Shown here piece by piece: positions 16,032 through 23,082 of a stretch of DNA of 32,123 bases. This stretch comes from Thermofilaceae archaeon (GTDB lineage Archaea > Thermoproteota > Thermoprotei > Thermofilales > Thermofilaceae). Each line of letters opens with the position of its first letter. The stretch's first letter is position 1. Where the stretch lies: assembly GCA_026986905.1 (NCBI GenBank), contig JALSNQ010000017.1, forward strand, positions 1-32,123, given 5' to 3'. The position numbers were made by a program, and so were the translations under genes. The notes under the pieces are model-generated. The model saw only the letters and a list, made by a program, of their open reading frames with translations, did no database searches and was not told where the DNA came from.

Positions 16032-16619
16032 ATGAAGATTACCCCCTTGACCACAATATTGCTGGTCGCCCTGTTAGTAGCGGCAACAGCGATAACAGCA
16101 ATCTACTATTATACCCAGACAGCTGCCAACAAGGCCGCAAAACCCCCCAATAATTCATCCCTAGAGAAAAACGTTGGAAAAATTAACTGCACCCTCAAAG
16201 TAATGGCTGTAAACAAAACCGCGGTCTACGAGGTAAACGGCTGCACAATAAAGCTCTACAGTAACGACACATTCACAGTCCTCTGGGTAGCTCTACCCTA
16301 TAAAATAGAGGACGGCAGCATAGTACTAAGCATACACACGGAGAACCCTGTAAGCGCAATATTCGAATACGCACCCACGGGAGAAAAAGTCAACGGAACA
16401 CGGATAGCCGTGCCGCTAAGCGGTGACTCCGAGGTCACACTCTCAATATCTAGCGGCGCCATAAGCGAGGTATACATGAATGATAAACCAGTCGGCCGCG
16501 CGATAAGCCCGTATATTCTAAAAGGCTTTGAGAACTCCAGCCTCCTCAAAATAACCATGTGGGGGCCGTGGAACGTAAACGCGACGATAACACTAGTAGG
16601 CTTGTCCACTGCACCCTAG
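16032..16619 (+). CDS. Membrane-anchored extracytoplasmic protein with many glycosylation sequons, unknown
   Basis: A 195-residue protein with an uncleaved-looking signal anchor at residues 7-28 (TTILLVALLVAATAITAIYY). It is followed by a Thr/Asn/Pro-rich linker and a beta-rich outer domain. Eight N-x-S/T sequons are present (N40, N41, N52, N61, N78, N121, N168, N183), dense for its size and typical of thermoacidophile or crenarchaeal surface proteins. Two cysteines (C53, C71) could form a disulfide. No catalytic motif is visible. Leaderless start at ATG 16032. Its TAG stop shares bases with the TAG stop of the convergent GTPase gene (CTAG at 16616-16619). A role as outer partner of the GTPase module is only a neighbourhood guess. 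Confidence 0.72.
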   Translation: MKITPLTTILLVALLVAATAITAIYYYTQTAANKAAKPPNNSSLEKNVGKINCTLKVMAVNKTAVYEVNGCTIKLYSNDTFTVLWVALPYKIEDGSIVLSIHTENPVSAIFEYAPTGEKVNGTRIAVPLSGDSEVTLSISSGAISEVYMNDKPVGRAISPYILKGFENSSLLKITMWGPWNVNATITLVGLSTAP

Positions 16620-17185
16620 TCACTCGCTTTTAAAGCCTGTTTTTCAAGCTCGGCCTCCTGGCTACGCTTTATAATCTTCACGGCGTATTTCAGGACGCTA
16701 GCCGCGGAGTCCTTCCTCAACGCGATTAGGGGAACAACGTAGTGGGGCGGGACGTTGAAGAGCCGCGCAACAGTCTGCGGTGGAACTGCATGCTCAATAT
16801 CCTGCTTGTTGGCAGCTATAATGTGCGGGTAATCACCTATACTTTTCATGTAACTGTAAAGAGCCCTAGCCCTTAGAACCTCCTGAACAGAGCTCGTATC
16901 AACCATGTAAATATAGCCGTGTATGCCGTAAGCTAGGATCTTCCACATAAACTGGAACCTCGTTTGCCCAGGCGTGCCGAAGAGATACACCGGTACCCCG
17001 TCGACACTCGTCTTACCGTAGTCAAAGGCCACCGTAGTGGTTTTCTTTATCTTTGCCTCACCCGGCGTCGAGACGCGGGCCTCCGTAGTCAGTATTTTCC
17101 CGCACAGAGTCTTCACAAATGTGGTTTTACCGCTCGCATAGGGGCCGCTAACCAAGATCTTTAGATACTTCTTTCGGGTTAACAT
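16616..17185 (-). CDS. Ras-like small GTPase, MglA/Arf-related, with atypical G3 motif
   Basis: A 189-residue single-domain P-loop GTPase. G1 is GPYASGKT (14-21), a G2 threonine lies in the KKTTTVAFDYG region (48-57), G3 is LFGTPGQTRF (68-77), G4 is ANKQD (125-129), and G5 is probably PLIALRKD (152-159). The G3 aspartate of DxxGQ is replaced by Gly70 (GTPGQ), as in bacterial MglA where this position is also not Asp. The glutamine after it is retained. No lipid-anchor or membrane segment. Its 5' end overlaps the roadblock gene by 38 bases, so the two are probably co-translated and their products likely interact, as MglA/MglB do. ATG start at 17185. Confidence 0.88.
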   Translation of the reverse strand: MLTRKKYLKILVSGPYASGKTTFVKTLCGKILTTEARVSTPGEAKIKKTTTVAFDYGKTSVDGVPVYLFGTPGQTRFQFMWKILAYGIHGYIYMVDTSSVQEVLRARALYSYMKSIGDYPHIIAANKQDIEHAVPPQTVARLFNVPPHYVVPLIALRKDSAASVLKYAVKIIKRSQEAELEKQALKASD

Positions 17186-17555
17186 GCCCTACACCGGAGA
17201 TCTTCTTGATTAAATGTTCATACTTTCTGAGTATTAAATGTATTAGTCCGAGATTTGGCCTAGGAGTTGTATGAACAGCTATAAAAGACCCGTTGAGAAC
17301 GGATATCACTACATGCTCCCCATTCTCAAACTCTACGTCTATACGCTTGAGCTTACTACCTATAACGTCGCTAAGCGAGTCGAGCGAGCCTAAAGCGGCG
17401 GCCGAGGCCACTGTCATAAATTCTGCCTCGGCGGGGGAGGGGGCCTGGAAGGCCACTGGTATTCCGTCACGCCACGCGAAGGTTATGATGTTTATCATAC
17501 CCATGGAGTCGTTTACTATCTTACTCAGTATTTCCTCAACGTTTTTCTCCGCCAT
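17148..17555 (-). CDS. Roadblock/LC7 domain protein, probable GTPase partner
   Basis: A 135-residue protein with the roadblock/LC7 fold pattern: helix VEEILSKIVNDSM, strand NIITFAWRDGIPVAF, a long helix PAEAEFMTVASAAALGSLDSL, then strands KRIDVEFENGEHVVISVLNG and SFIAVHTTPRPNLGLIHLILRK, and a C-terminal helix. Such proteins dimerise and bind Ras-like GTPases as activators or scaffolds (MglB, Ragulator, TRAPP-like). It overlaps the GTPase gene by 38 bases. The C-terminal 20 residues (after HLIKKI) extend beyond the domain. ATG start preceded by GGGGGTGA. Confidence 0.82.
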   Translation of the reverse strand: MAEKNVEEILSKIVNDSMGMINIITFAWRDGIPVAFQAPSPAEAEFMTVASAAALGSLDSLSDVIGSKLKRIDVEFENGEHVVISVLNGSFIAVHTTPRPNLGLIHLILRKYEHLIKKISGVGHVNPKEVSKDLG

Positions 17556-17601
17556 AAATCACCCCCATGTTCCCCCCGAAAAGGTTCTTCATATAGGTAT
17601 T

Positions 17602-17644
17602 TGTGGAATCCGTGGAGAAAAAAACATTTCCACATGGTAGAGCT
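17602..17644 (-). terminator. Inverted repeat with T7 tract between coiled-coil and roadblock genes
   Basis: TGTGGAA (17602-17608) and TTCCACA (17638-17644) are perfect complements. On the minus strand a run of seven T lies between the arms. It could be a terminator or attenuator after the coiled-coil gene, or a leader element of the roadblock-GTPase pair. A TATA-like TTATATTAT at about 17650-17658 would start transcription just inside it. Confidence 0.4.
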
Positions 17645-17660
17645 CTCAAGATAATATAAT

Positions 17661-18476
17661 TTACAGGGAATATTTCCTATTATAGTACGCTGTGAGAGCC
17701 TCTTCAACAGATTTTATGACGTCCTCTGAGACATCGCTCGGGAACGCTATAATCCCATACACGTCGAGATCCTCGCTCTTGCCTACGTGGAAAACCGCTA
17801 TCCGCGCATCGCTTCTCAAAATGTTTATCTCCCTAGAATTAGTAAACTTCTCACTGATCTTCGCCACTTCCAGTAGTTTAGGCAAATCATCACTTATGCT
17901 ACCATACTTCTCCACGATATATCCCTGAGAGGTCATGAGCGCGGCATACCGTATATTAGGCACGTAGAGCTTCAAGTCCTCCAAGCTCTTTAACTCCCTT
18001 ATCTGCGGCGCCTCTTTCCTCTTAGGCGGCTGAAAGAGCGGCTGCTGCACAGGTACGGCTTTACCCGTCCTAATGACATAGTTTACCCGGGTCTCCAGGG
18101 TTTTAACCCTCTTCTCCAGATCAGAGATGGAGGCTACGATTTTTGAAGCCTGTGCAGAGAGGCCCCCGTACCTTGTTTCAAGAGCTGAAAGCTTTTTCTC
18201 GAGATCTCCGAGTCTTTCTTCAACAGCCGAGAGGCCCGCGTTGCTCTTTCCCTCCTCCTCGATGCGGGTTTGCAGCTGTTTAACGGCGTCCTCTAGTTCC
18301 TTCAACTTAGGCCCTACTGTAAGAAGCACTGCTTCCTCCCTCTTCGGGCCGCCCGTCTGAAGCATCTGTCCCCTAGTAAGCAGGTATATTAGAGCCACGA
18401 AAAGGCCGACCGAGAACGCGAGAGCAATTATGCTCATTATGAAGAGTATTTGCACGGTTTCTAAACTCGCCGCCAT
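17661..18476 (-). CDS. Membrane-anchored coiled-coil protein with roadblock-like C-terminal domain
   Basis: A 271-residue protein in three parts. An N-terminal transmembrane helix (about 8-34, VQILFIMSIIALAFSVGLF then VALIYLL) comes first. A long coiled coil follows at about 50-140, with heptads such as LKELEDAVKQLQTRIEEE and LGDLEKKLSALETRYGGL. After a proline-rich linker (VPVQQPLFQPPKRKE) comes a C-terminal alpha/beta domain (about 160-271) with YAALMTSQGYIVEKYGSI and a YGIIAFPSDVSEDVIKSVEEAL helix, a layout like roadblock/LC7. The frame is open to a GTG at 18512; the ATG at 18476 is chosen because it puts the membrane helix near the terminus and a TATA-like run lies about 27 bases before it. 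It is upstream of the roadblock and GTPase genes, so it may tether them to the membrane. Confidence 0.7.
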   Translation of the reverse strand: MAASLETVQILFIMSIIALAFSVGLFVALIYLLTRGQMLQTGGPKREEAVLLTVGPKLKELEDAVKQLQTRIEEEGKSNAGLSAVEERLGDLEKKLSALETRYGGLSAQASKIVASISDLEKRVKTLETRVNYVIRTGKAVPVQQPLFQPPKRKEAPQIRELKSLEDLKLYVPNIRYAALMTSQGYIVEKYGSISDDLPKLLEVAKISEKFTNSREINILRSDARIAVFHVGKSEDLDVYGIIAFPSDVSEDVIKSVEEALTAYYNRKYSL

Positions 18477-18560
18477 CTCCGTTAAATGGAGAGGTTGAAT
18501 TATCAACACCACACACCCGATTATGTTTAACAGCTGTCACTGCTATTAATAGTAGGCCTT

Positions 18561-19796
18561 CTATTCCTCTTCGCTACTACTCGTGACCTCTTCAACAGCC
18601 CTTTTCAACTCGATGGCCACGTCCTCGGGCGAGTAACGCGCCACCCTCACAGAGTCCAGCATCTCGATTCCCCCTATTCTTTCAAAGGGTATTATGTCGA
18701 CGAAGACGTGGAAGAAACTATCGTATCCGAAGGGGTTACTGTATATCAACACGTTCCTATCCGGGACAACGCCCACCTCGTCCAGCGCCCTAGAGAGAGT
18801 AATGAGGGCGTCAGCGAGCCCCTCTATCTCAGCCATGTCGAAATCCGTTATCCTGTCTACATGGCGTTTAGGCGAAAGCCTGAGGTGAAAATTCCTCCTA
18901 GGCGAAGATGTCGCCCACGCTATCCAGGTATTGTTTTCATAAACTACTCTCCCATCATGCCTAGAAGTACATAGGTAACAGTAACCATGCGCCCTCTTGT
19001 CTTCAAAGGCTTGAAGCAGGTTTTCCATAAAGGCCCCGTGTCCGTCCTGGTTAAGGTCTATGTAAACCTGGCTGTGAAGCCTAGGCTGGCTCCCGCCAGC
19101 CATGTAGCCAATGTTAAAGAAGGCGTAGACGGGTATCAGCTTTATACCCCGGCTCATGGCGTCTTGCACCGAGAACTCAACGGCGTTTATCATGGACCTC
19201 AGCATGCACTTCAGCCTGTCAACCTTTGCCTCGCTAAGTGTCTCGTAGAACTCGTCGACAACAAAGGATACAAGGTTGATGCCGTACGCTATCTTGGTGT
19301 GGGGATCCTCTACCTTGGACTTTATTTTTTCGAGAACGTCTGGGTCTATGTGCCTAGCCATCGCCGGAAAACGGTTTATAATGGTAACTGCCTTGACGTC
19401 TTCTAATTCAAGCATGACAGGCGTCGTGGAGAAGGCTGAATCGGCCCTCTTATCGTCTATCGCGACAAAGATGGCGTAGTCCTTTCCCTCAACTATACTC
19501 TTAAAAACGTCTCTCCGCTTTTTCTCATGAGCCTTACGTATATCCTCCGGCCTGGCAGCCCTAATCGGGCTTACATAGGAGAAGTGCCCCCTCCTCTTAC
19601 CTATGGGTATAAGTCTTCCAGTAGAAGTGTCGTAAAGTTTTATCTCGGCCGAAGATAGAGGGTCCCAGCGCTTCCTAGGAACGTATTTGATTTTATCCTC
19701 AGAAAAATTATATTTAGTGATAATTCCCCAATGCATGAAGGGTATCTGTTCATACGGGAGAATCTTGGAAGCCTGCAACGCTCTACACCCCTTCAT
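18561..19796 (-). CDS. GalT-like HIT-superfamily nucleotidyltransferase homologue
   Basis: A 411-residue protein resembling galactose-1-phosphate uridylyltransferase relatives (HIT fold duplicated). The central motif NIGYMAGGSQPRLHSQVY (228-245) matches the GalT pattern N-G-x-x-x-G-G-S-x-x-H-x-H-x-Q. The second, catalytic histidine is kept as His241, while the first is Arg239. A C273-Y-L-C276 pair may bind metal, and DSFFHVFVDIIP near the C-terminus matches the second HIT half. Likely a nucleotidyl transfer or phosphorolysis of a sugar nucleotide or NDP compound; substrate unknown. The ATG at 19796 lies at or before the predicted transcription start. A TTG at 19778 with GGGGTG upstream, or the ATG at 19736 (MHWGII), may be the true start. 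Confidence 0.72.
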   Translation of the reverse strand: MKGCRALQASKILPYEQIPFMHWGIITKYNFSEDKIKYVPRKRWDPLSSAEIKLYDTSTGRLIPIGKRRGHFSYVSPIRAARPEDIRKAHEKKRRDVFKSIVEGKDYAIFVAIDDKRADSAFSTTPVMLELEDVKAVTIINRFPAMARHIDPDVLEKIKSKVEDPHTKIAYGINLVSFVVDEFYETLSEAKVDRLKCMLRSMINAVEFSVQDAMSRGIKLIPVYAFFNIGYMAGGSQPRLHSQVYIDLNQDGHGAFMENLLQAFEDKRAHGYCYLCTSRHDGRVVYENNTWIAWATSSPRRNFHLRLSPKRHVDRITDFDMAEIEGLADALITLSRALDEVGVVPDRNVLIYSNPFGYDSFFHVFVDIIPFERIGGIEMLDSVRVARYSPEDVAIELKRAVEEVTSSSEEE

Positions 19797-19945: not shown

Positions 19946-21361
19946 CTAGGCCTTTAACCCTATTATTGGAAGCCTCTCCTGCACCTTCTCGAACTCGATG
20001 AAGAACCTAGGTCCTATATCTGGCTGCACGTACTCTAGGGGGGCTGCGTCCCTGCATTGAGACGCGATCATCCTCTCACACAGTAATGCCAACCCGTATC
20101 TACTCACGCCACTAAGCTTCTCCCTAGCCCTTGCCAGAATTTCCGGGGCTGGCGTAAATCCTCGAAGCCTGCATGCGCCCTCCACGACATCTACAGCCTC
20201 GTCGGGGTCTAGTGGCGGGACGTAGACTACGTAGCCCTTATACTGCTCATACCAGGCGTCGCCTATACTGTGGGCCAGTAATACGTTGGGATGCGTAAGC
20301 CGCGCATATTTAACAAAGAGCTCTTCATCTTCAAGTCGCGGGCCGTAAACTATCACCCTAGCCCCTCTCCCAATAATCCTCTCCGCCGCCTCGGCGACAG
20401 ACGACATATCGTAAAATAGGAGCTCAAGGATATCCTCGCCGACCTCGGGCACTCTATGCTTAACGTACCCCACGCGTCTCGGCGCCGGAGACCCGCCGCG
20501 AGTCCTCCCACCCCTCACTGCATCCGATAAAGGTGAACGCAGAGATGACCCTACGCGCCCAGTTAACGTCTTTCCCCCTCTACTACCCACAAAATATGCT
20601 GTGAGATTCACCGCGCCCAGAGACGCTAGTAGAAAAATCACATCCCAGAGGCCCGCATCCAACCCTCCCGGGACGATGAACTTTACAACCCCCAGCACAG
20701 CCGCCGAGGCGAGCGCGGCATAGCCCGCCCCGTACCTTCTCCACGCCATGTTGCCCGCCAACGCCGCCAAGGGGATAGCCACAGCCTCCGCCAACAGCAC
20801 AGGCATCCTGCGCAGGTCTAGGAGAAGATACATTAAAAGCTCTCCCGCCTTCCCAAAGGCCGTGAAGGCTGCCAGCTTCGACGCGTAGCCGCCCGGCAGG
20901 AAAATTATGCCCCCGAGAAGTGCTGGCTGTGGCAGGACTATGGCTGAAGCAACGTAGAGGAGCACGACGAACACGAGTCCAGAGATGACCGTTCCCACCT
21001 CGTCGCCGGACGACAGCTGGGCTATCACGACGCCGAGCACTAGGGGTGTCAGCGGTGGATAGAGCAGTATAACCGGCACTGATAGCAGTATAGCCGCCGC
21101 GTCCCTCCAAGAGGAAAACACTCGTGAAAGAACCAGGAACATGGGCGCAGCTATAGCGTAGGCGGCAAAAGGGGCAGTTATATAGAGCATAAATAGGGGT
21201 ACCAGCGCCGCCGCCGCCACCCCCACGGGAGGGTATACCGCGGCTAGAATAGCTGGGATGAACGCTAGGGGGCTCTGGTTGATAGAAAATATGGAGAGAT
21301 AGGCCACGGGAACCAGGAATGCGGCAGCGGATGCGAGTAGCCTCTCAGCACGCCCCTCCAT
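19946..21361 (-). CDS. Polytopic membrane protein with cytosolic C-terminal domain, unknown
   Basis: A 471-residue protein. Roughly residues 8-270 are strongly hydrophobic, with about eight to ten membrane helices (for example LLASAAAFLVPVAYLSIF and AAILLSVPVILLYPPLTPL). An Arg/Gly/Ser-rich linker follows (about 272-310). The soluble C-terminal domain of about 160 residues has a beta strand ARVIVYGPRLEDEELF, then VLLAHSIGDAW, YVVYVPPLDPDEAVDVVE and SGVSRYGLALLCERMIAS. That latter order resembles the post-Walker-B part and lid of AAA+ ATPases, but no Walker A is present, so I do not assign it. The frame opens at a TTG (21382); the ATG at 21361 is preferred. It is divergent from the PepQ-like gene. 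Confidence 0.65.
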   Translation of the reverse strand: MEGRAERLLASAAAFLVPVAYLSIFSINQSPLAFIPAILAAVYPPVGVAAAALVPLFMLYITAPFAAYAIAAPMFLVLSRVFSSWRDAAAILLSVPVILLYPPLTPLVLGVVIAQLSSGDEVGTVISGLVFVVLLYVASAIVLPQPALLGGIIFLPGGYASKLAAFTAFGKAGELLMYLLLDLRRMPVLLAEAVAIPLAALAGNMAWRRYGAGYAALASAAVLGVVKFIVPGGLDAGLWDVIFLLASLGAVNLTAYFVGSRGGKTLTGRVGSSLRSPLSDAVRGGRTRGGSPAPRRVGYVKHRVPEVGEDILELLFYDMSSVAEAAERIIGRGARVIVYGPRLEDEELFVKYARLTHPNVLLAHSIGDAWYEQYKGYVVYVPPLDPDEAVDVVEGACRLRGFTPAPEILARAREKLSGVSRYGLALLCERMIASQCRDAAPLEYVQPDIGPRFFIEFEKVQERLPIIGLKA

Positions 21362-21440
21362 GAATGCGGTACACCATGCCAAAGCTCAACCAGGGTGATA
21401 GAAAAAGGCTGCCCCACGGGCCATTCCACGCTTAAGGAAA

Positions 21441-22668: not shown

Positions 22669-22707
22669 ACCTCCCTTCACATATTACTGGAATATTGGGT
22701 GAGCGGA

Positions 22708-23082
22708 GTGGCATTGAGCTTAGACGAAATCAAGAAGATAATAGAGCCTGTGTTCCAGGTACGCGGCGTGGAGGGCGTCGTAGTGGCTACAAGCGACGGA
22801 CTTCCACTACTCAGTAGCCTAGAGGATAGGGAGAAGGAGGAAAAAGTAGCCGCGCTCACAGCGGTCCTCTCAGAGGTTGGCAACAGGACTAGCATGGAGC
22901 TCGGCAAAGGGGAGGCCGAGTGGATAACCATACACACGCCCAGCGGCTCAGGAGTCCTGCTGTTAAAGGTAGGCGAGATAGGCTATATGGCTGTGCTCTT
23001 CGACAAGGACACTAAGCTGGGCGTGCTCCTCTACACGCTTAGGAACGTTAGGAACGAGTTTGTGAAAAAATTCGGAGGCTGA
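22708..23082 (+). CDS. Roadblock/LC7 domain protein, stand-alone
   Basis: A 124-residue protein that is almost entirely a roadblock/LC7 domain. Helix SLDEIKKIIEPVFQ is followed by strand VEGVVVATSDGLPLLS (the V-x-G-x-x-V-x-x-x-D-G pattern is diagnostic), helix KEEKVAALTAVLSEVGNRTSM, strands AEWITIHTPSGSGVLLLKVG and YMAVLFDKDTKLGVLLYTLR, and the final helix. No GTPase gene adjoins it; the closest is the MglA-like gene 5.5 kb away on the other strand. The frame opens at a GTG (22699), but the GTG at 22708 has GGTGA five bases before it. It converges on rad50 with a 12-base gap. Confidence 0.85.
   Translation: MALSLDEIKKIIEPVFQVRGVEGVVVATSDGLPLLSSLEDREKEEKVAALTAVLSEVGNRTSMELGKGEAEWITIHTPSGSGVLLLKVGEIGYMAVLFDKDTKLGVLLYTLRNVRNEFVKKFGG

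Follow-up and report, generated by a model that had tools for sequence, protein, structure and literature searches.

The locus described here raises two questions: how an archaeal cell might hold a small GTPase at its membrane, and what such a switch would act on. The locus lies in a window of 32,123 nucleotides (the whole stretch of DNA analysed) from a Thermofilaceae genome of 25 contigs that is 57% complete. The GTPase of the nearest named relative, a Thermofilaceae MAG, is 85-89% identical to that of the window. A preliminary description, made from the letters of the sequence, had proposed a membrane-tethered GTPase module formed by three consecutive minus-strand genes and a convergent gene for a surface protein. 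We find that the module is of the MglA/roadblock kind and is larger than that description had it. Our best explanation, for which we would put the chances at about even, is a membrane-recruited four-protein module built around an MglA-type GTPase, with the type IV pilus (T4P) machinery as its output; the pairing of its roadblock proteins, recruitment of the GTPase, regulation of its nucleotide state and the pilus output are all putative elements of this reading.

The first gene of the trio (17661-18512, minus strand) encodes a protein of 283 amino acids from a GTG start, or of 271 from an internal ATG, with a transmembrane (TM) segment (residues 22-42; 18387-18449), a coiled-coil region (residues ~58-149; 18066-18341) and a C-terminal domain (residues 172-283; 17664-17999). 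The other two minus-strand genes encode a protein of 135 residues (17148-17555) and the GTPase of 189 residues (16616-17185), and they overlap by 38 bases (17148-17185), as also seen in other Thermofilaceae. All coordinates given previously, including this overlap, were correct; residues 160-271 of the C-terminal domain had been counted from the internal ATG (residue 13 in the GTG-start reading) and correspond to residues 172-283 of the longer protein. The product of the convergent gene (16032-16619, plus strand) has a TM segment at its N-terminus and carries several N-x-S/T sites. The gene had been said to share its stop codon with the GTPase gene, which is nearly right: both genes end in CTAG, where two TAG stops interlock in a 4-base overlap. 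Two more genes on the strand of the trio lie upstream of it; one encodes a HIT/GalT-like protein (18561-19796, minus strand) and the other a multi-TM protein without a Pfam or NCBIfam match (19946-21382, minus strand). The multi-TM gene is kept in most Thermofilaceae loci and the HIT/GalT-like gene in several, and both may therefore belong to the same operon as the trio.

How the module could be tied to the membrane is suggested by the first protein. Hydropathy indicates its TM segment, and in 20/20 family members more positive residues follow the segment than precede it. Because of this charge bias, the N-terminus is predicted to be outside and the coiled coil and C-terminal domain should be cytoplasmic, in agreement with the membrane tether proposed before. 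The AlphaFold model of this protein (20-row alignment, mean pLDDT 80) has three long helices in the coiled-coil region, which also gives many weak coiled-coil Pfam matches. An archaellum accessory (FlaC-like) scaffold was considered and rejected: the FlaC_arch match (7e-5, below the cut-off) covers the coiled coil only, where dozens of other, unrelated coiled-coil families reach similar scores.

Residues ~171-280 were modelled at pLDDT 89-95 and show the secondary-structure order of a roadblock domain: a helix, a pair of strands, a second helix, three further strands and a final helix. The best Foldseek matches of this domain in the PDB were LAMTOR2/p14, a Streptomyces roadblock, MglC and MglB (E 5.8e-5 to 4e-4), and Asgard roadblocks were also among the fold matches. 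No Pfam roadblock match was obtained for the C-terminal domain, and a PDB sequence search with the profile of the anchored protein gave dynein-roadblock matches only, which were insignificant (0.12). A profile of the anchored domain from Thermofilaceae matched roadblock profiles weakly (27-51% probability). With distant members added, it reached 79-82% against broad roadblock profiles with a score of 32-33, and 50 column-shuffled control profiles scored at most 16. We conclude with high confidence that the C-terminal domain is predicted to have a roadblock fold, with partial support at the sequence level; the roadblock-like domain of the preliminary description was thus upheld by the model (pLDDT ~90-95) and by the fold matches to LAMTOR2, MglB and MglC. 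In addition, a model built from members outside Thermofilaceae found the Thermofilaceae ones (best E 1.6e-6), and profile-profile comparison gave 94-96%. As judged from these comparisons, the anchored domain is one family across Thermofilaceae and the other lineages that have the trio.

The matches to LAMTOR2 bring to mind the eukaryotic Ragulator/LAMTOR-Rag system, in which a roadblock platform likewise tethers small GTPases to a membrane. Descent of the tether from a common source with the Rag system would account for LAMTOR2/p14 chains ranking first in the PDB search with the anchored domain; however, roadblock folds are all alike, and MglB, Streptomyces and Asgard roadblocks score similarly. 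In Ragulator the tether is a separate protein, p18/LAMTOR1, and the GTPases form Rag heterodimers and have an additional C-terminal domain, whereas the GTPase in the window is a single MglA-type G domain of 189 residues. It lacks the C-terminal roadblock-like domain of Rag GTPases, and we regard such a relationship as very improbable.

The protein encoded at 17148-17555 had been called a roadblock/LC7 protein. Its Robl_LC7 match (0.0043) is below the Pfam cut-off, but its AlphaFold model (pLDDT 89.9) has MglB and archaeal roadblocks as best PDB matches, MglB with an E value of 4.9e-8 and TM-scores of 0.77/0.83 in the fold search. On the evidence of the model, it is a member of the roadblock/LC7 superfamily. 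A second free roadblock protein of 127 residues, absent from the preliminary description, is encoded at 22699-23082 on the plus strand and matches Robl_LC7 (PF03259) above the cut-off, at about 1e-11 to 2.6e-11. When the source genome was searched with PF03259 at 0.001, only this second protein was found, the first being missed because its sequence is divergent; with a roadblock profile, the genes of these two proteins were the only free roadblock genes detected in the available sequence of this 57%-complete genome. In six genomes of the genus Thermofilum, an orthologue of the second gene directly follows the GTPase gene on the same strand after a gap of 45-161 bases, giving the order TM-roadblock, roadblock, GTPase, roadblock; in the genus of the window this gene is displaced. 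The earlier idea that a single gene includes the tether was right, yet most Thermofilaceae encode two further, free roadblock proteins.

An alignment suggested how the roadblock proteins may differ in their roles. The free roadblocks keep an Asp-Gly pair (WRDG in the 17148-17555 protein), which is conserved in the roadblock partners of MglA groups 2-5 (PMC4316618, Wuichet and Sogaard-Andersen). In the anchored domain only the Gly of this pair is kept (TSQG), from which we infer that this domain acts as a structural partner and not as the active regulator.

The Ras-like, MglA-like GTPase proposed at 16616-17185 was supported by Pfam (ATP_bind_1, 1.5e-13; Arf, 6.8e-9) and by its motifs: GPYASGKTT in the G1/P-loop (17120-17146, minus strand), in which G, G, K, T and T are invariant in 28 aligned relatives, TTTVAFD in G2, GTPGQ in G3 (16964-16978, minus strand) and NKQD in G4. 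According to PMC4316618, GTPGQ in G3 is diagnostic of MglA groups 2-5, in which Thr replaces the group 1 Arg in G2; groups 4/5 have [NT]KxD in G4, and groups 2/3 deviate, with NxFD in group 2. The GTPase of the window has GTPGQ together with the G2 Thr, and its NKQD agrees with the G4 motif of groups 4/5. It differs from group 1 MglA (Myxococcus, Thermus), which has TVPGQ and an intrinsic Arg finger, in having GTPGQ and no Arg beside the G2 Thr. The likeness to MglA/MglB thus consists in a small GTPase with a roadblock partner; MglB is soluble, whereas an anchored roadblock is added here. In a GTPase tree with conservon, Thermus/Deinococcus, group 1 and Arf sequences among those compared, the archaeal rows were apart from conservon and Thermus/Deinococcus rows, and the branches of group 1 and Arf were long and unreliable.

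Actinobacterial conservons (CvnA-D) also combine a membrane protein, a roadblock and a GTPase in one operon, in the same general order, and the GTPase of the window is ~33-37% identical to conservon GTPases. An archaeal conservon would pass an external signal from a membrane sensor through the roadblock and the GTPase to a transcriptional response. However, neither a histidine kinase-like CvnA nor a DUF742 protein (CvnC) is encoded in the operon, the membrane protein is itself a roadblock, G4 is NKQD rather than the NxFD of group 2, and conservon GTPases form a separate clade in the tree. We therefore consider this explanation improbable.

The trio is well conserved, as expected if its members work together in the MglA-type module favoured here. 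Its order and strand are kept in ten Thermofilaceae genomes (nine besides that of the window), in a second Thermofilales family (f3, both loci), and in 13/14 loci of Wolframiiraptoraceae and 10/11 of Calditenuaceae. In a third Thermofilales family (f2), all of these parts are present, with the anchored protein at the end; in two f2 loci (L043, 7299-8683; L045, 67-1403), three consecutive free roadblock-like genes precede the GTPase and the anchored roadblock follows it. The anchored protein is missing from Vulcanisaeta and Caldivirga, where the GTPase is present and in most cases accompanied by a roadblock. The GTPase family is widespread but not universal in Thermoproteota, since a match at 1e-20 was found in 67/398 sampled genomes. 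Archaeal MglA proteins have been placed in groups 4 and 5, of which group 4 was reported to lack conserved neighbours and group 5 to have varied ones (PMC4316618); the GTPase in the window resembles these groups in G2, G3 and G4, but its neighbourhood is strongly conserved. No published account of a trio of GTPase, roadblock and anchored roadblock was found in a literature search whose coverage mostly excludes subscription journals.

Conservation did not extend to the convergent surface gene, which had been included in the proposed system: a homologue beside the trio was present in only one genome, of the same genus, again with a 4-base overlap with the GTPase gene. As a genus-specific gene it was rejected as a part of the module. 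As a separate observation, the first GTPase in genera g3 and g7 has beside it a block in which a second, more distant GTPase is combined with a roadblock of its own, a methyltransferase-like protein and a Zn-ribbon-like protein (L055, 9207-11684; L056, 1661-4102; L060; L062); in G013 and G009, T4P genes are close to this block. In Thermofilum, too, a distant GTPase is found together with the Zn-ribbon-like protein (L063, L065, L066).

What the module acts on was addressed through the neighbours of the trio in relatives. In Wolframiiraptoraceae, it is located beside genes for a FlaI-type ATPase and a FlaJ/TadC-type platform protein, often with a pilin, and Pfam confirmed T2SSE and T2SSF in a representative. 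The FlaI-type ATPase is within 3.4 kb of the trio in 13/14 loci; with about two T2SSF loci per genome, rough arithmetic gives a random gene a chance of a few per cent of being so near. Since the Wolframiiraptoraceae loci have a common origin, they represent few independent events, and the weight of the pilus linkage therefore rests on differing arrangements elsewhere. In f2, the module is divergent from FlaI/FlaJ genes in G025, with which the contig ends of G017 and G023 are consistent; in f3, pilin-type genes are directly upstream and FlaJ is at 6 kb; and pilus genes are beside the module in 2/5 genomes of genera g7 and g3 (two g7 genomes). On the GTPase tree, the T4P-linked rows require six changes. 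Among bacterial relatives, mostly Coriobacteriia-type Actinomycetota, T2SSE-like genes are often within ~3 kb of the GTPase. We observed GTPase and roadblock genes beside T2SSE genes in loci L111, L121, L126, L128, L133 and L163; one bacterial T2SSE locus was confirmed by Pfam, and in L111 and L121 a DUF4388 gene lies between the roadblock and the GTPase.

In Myxococcus, MglA is reported to stimulate T4P assembly (PMC9481161). In archaea, T4P loci encode roadblock proteins (arCOG02603), as stated in one sentence of PMC4858521, where a Ras-like GTPase and a TM-anchored roadblock are not named. The location of the trio inside T4P loci of relatives is an independent line of support for the spatial-signalling idea of the preliminary description, from which the surface gene has to be removed.

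No T4P gene was found near the trio in the genus of the window, in Thermofilum (0/9) or in Calditenuaceae (0/11), so that T4P control by the module of the window is suggested by analogy with its relatives. The T2SSF gene is missing from the source genome, which is uninformative because that genome is 57% complete. In five Calditenuaceae loci (L098, L103, L106, L108, L109), the same two opposite-strand genes (~185 and ~220 amino acids) follow the GTPase instead of T4P genes. A membrane-anchored GTPase switch might have a non-pilus output in most lineages, such as cell polarity, division or envelope synthesis, with T4P control as a lineage-specific use. In favour of this possibility, Calditenuaceae and most Thermofilaceae retain the trio with no T4P genes around it, and in Thermofilaceae it comes after the conserved multi-TM protein and, often, the HIT/GalT-like gene. 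Recurrence of the pilus linkage in several lineages, in differing arrangements and also in bacterial relatives, argues against it, and we regard it as a tentative, if substantial, alternative. An ancestral output in T4P assembly or placement is likely.

In the mechanism that we favour, the TM protein, with its N-terminus outside, would present the coiled coil and a non-canonical roadblock domain to the cytoplasm. The anchored domain would pair with the free MglB-like roadblock, which keeps its DG pair, forming a platform fixed to the membrane. This platform would bind the soluble GTPase and regulate it in a GAP- or GEF-like manner, and the second free roadblock may modulate the module. The most probable role of the anchored and free roadblocks is to hold the GTPase at the membrane and tune its nucleotide state. 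The GTP-bound switch would then act on assembly, number or position of the T4P machinery, as MglA does for bacterial T4P, and in Thermofilum and the genus of the window the module would no longer be encoded beside its target. More broadly, and with chances somewhat short of even, an ancient Thermoproteota switch with an anchor-fused roadblock may set the time and place of T4P, MglA-type pilus control being common to archaea and bacteria and later unlinked in Thermofilum-like cells.

To our knowledge, the mechanism by which archaea choose where to place their pili is essentially unknown. A compact module that brings its own membrane anchor and occurs in some archaeal T4P loci is a directly testable candidate for such a role, and its occurrence in pilus loci of relatives suggests that archaea may have a counterpart of the bacterial switch for siting pili. 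The presence of related GTPases beside bacterial T4P genes may point to an early connection between surface appendages and small GTPases. In addition, our analysis suggests that eukaryotes are not alone in tethering roadblock/GTPase complexes to membranes.
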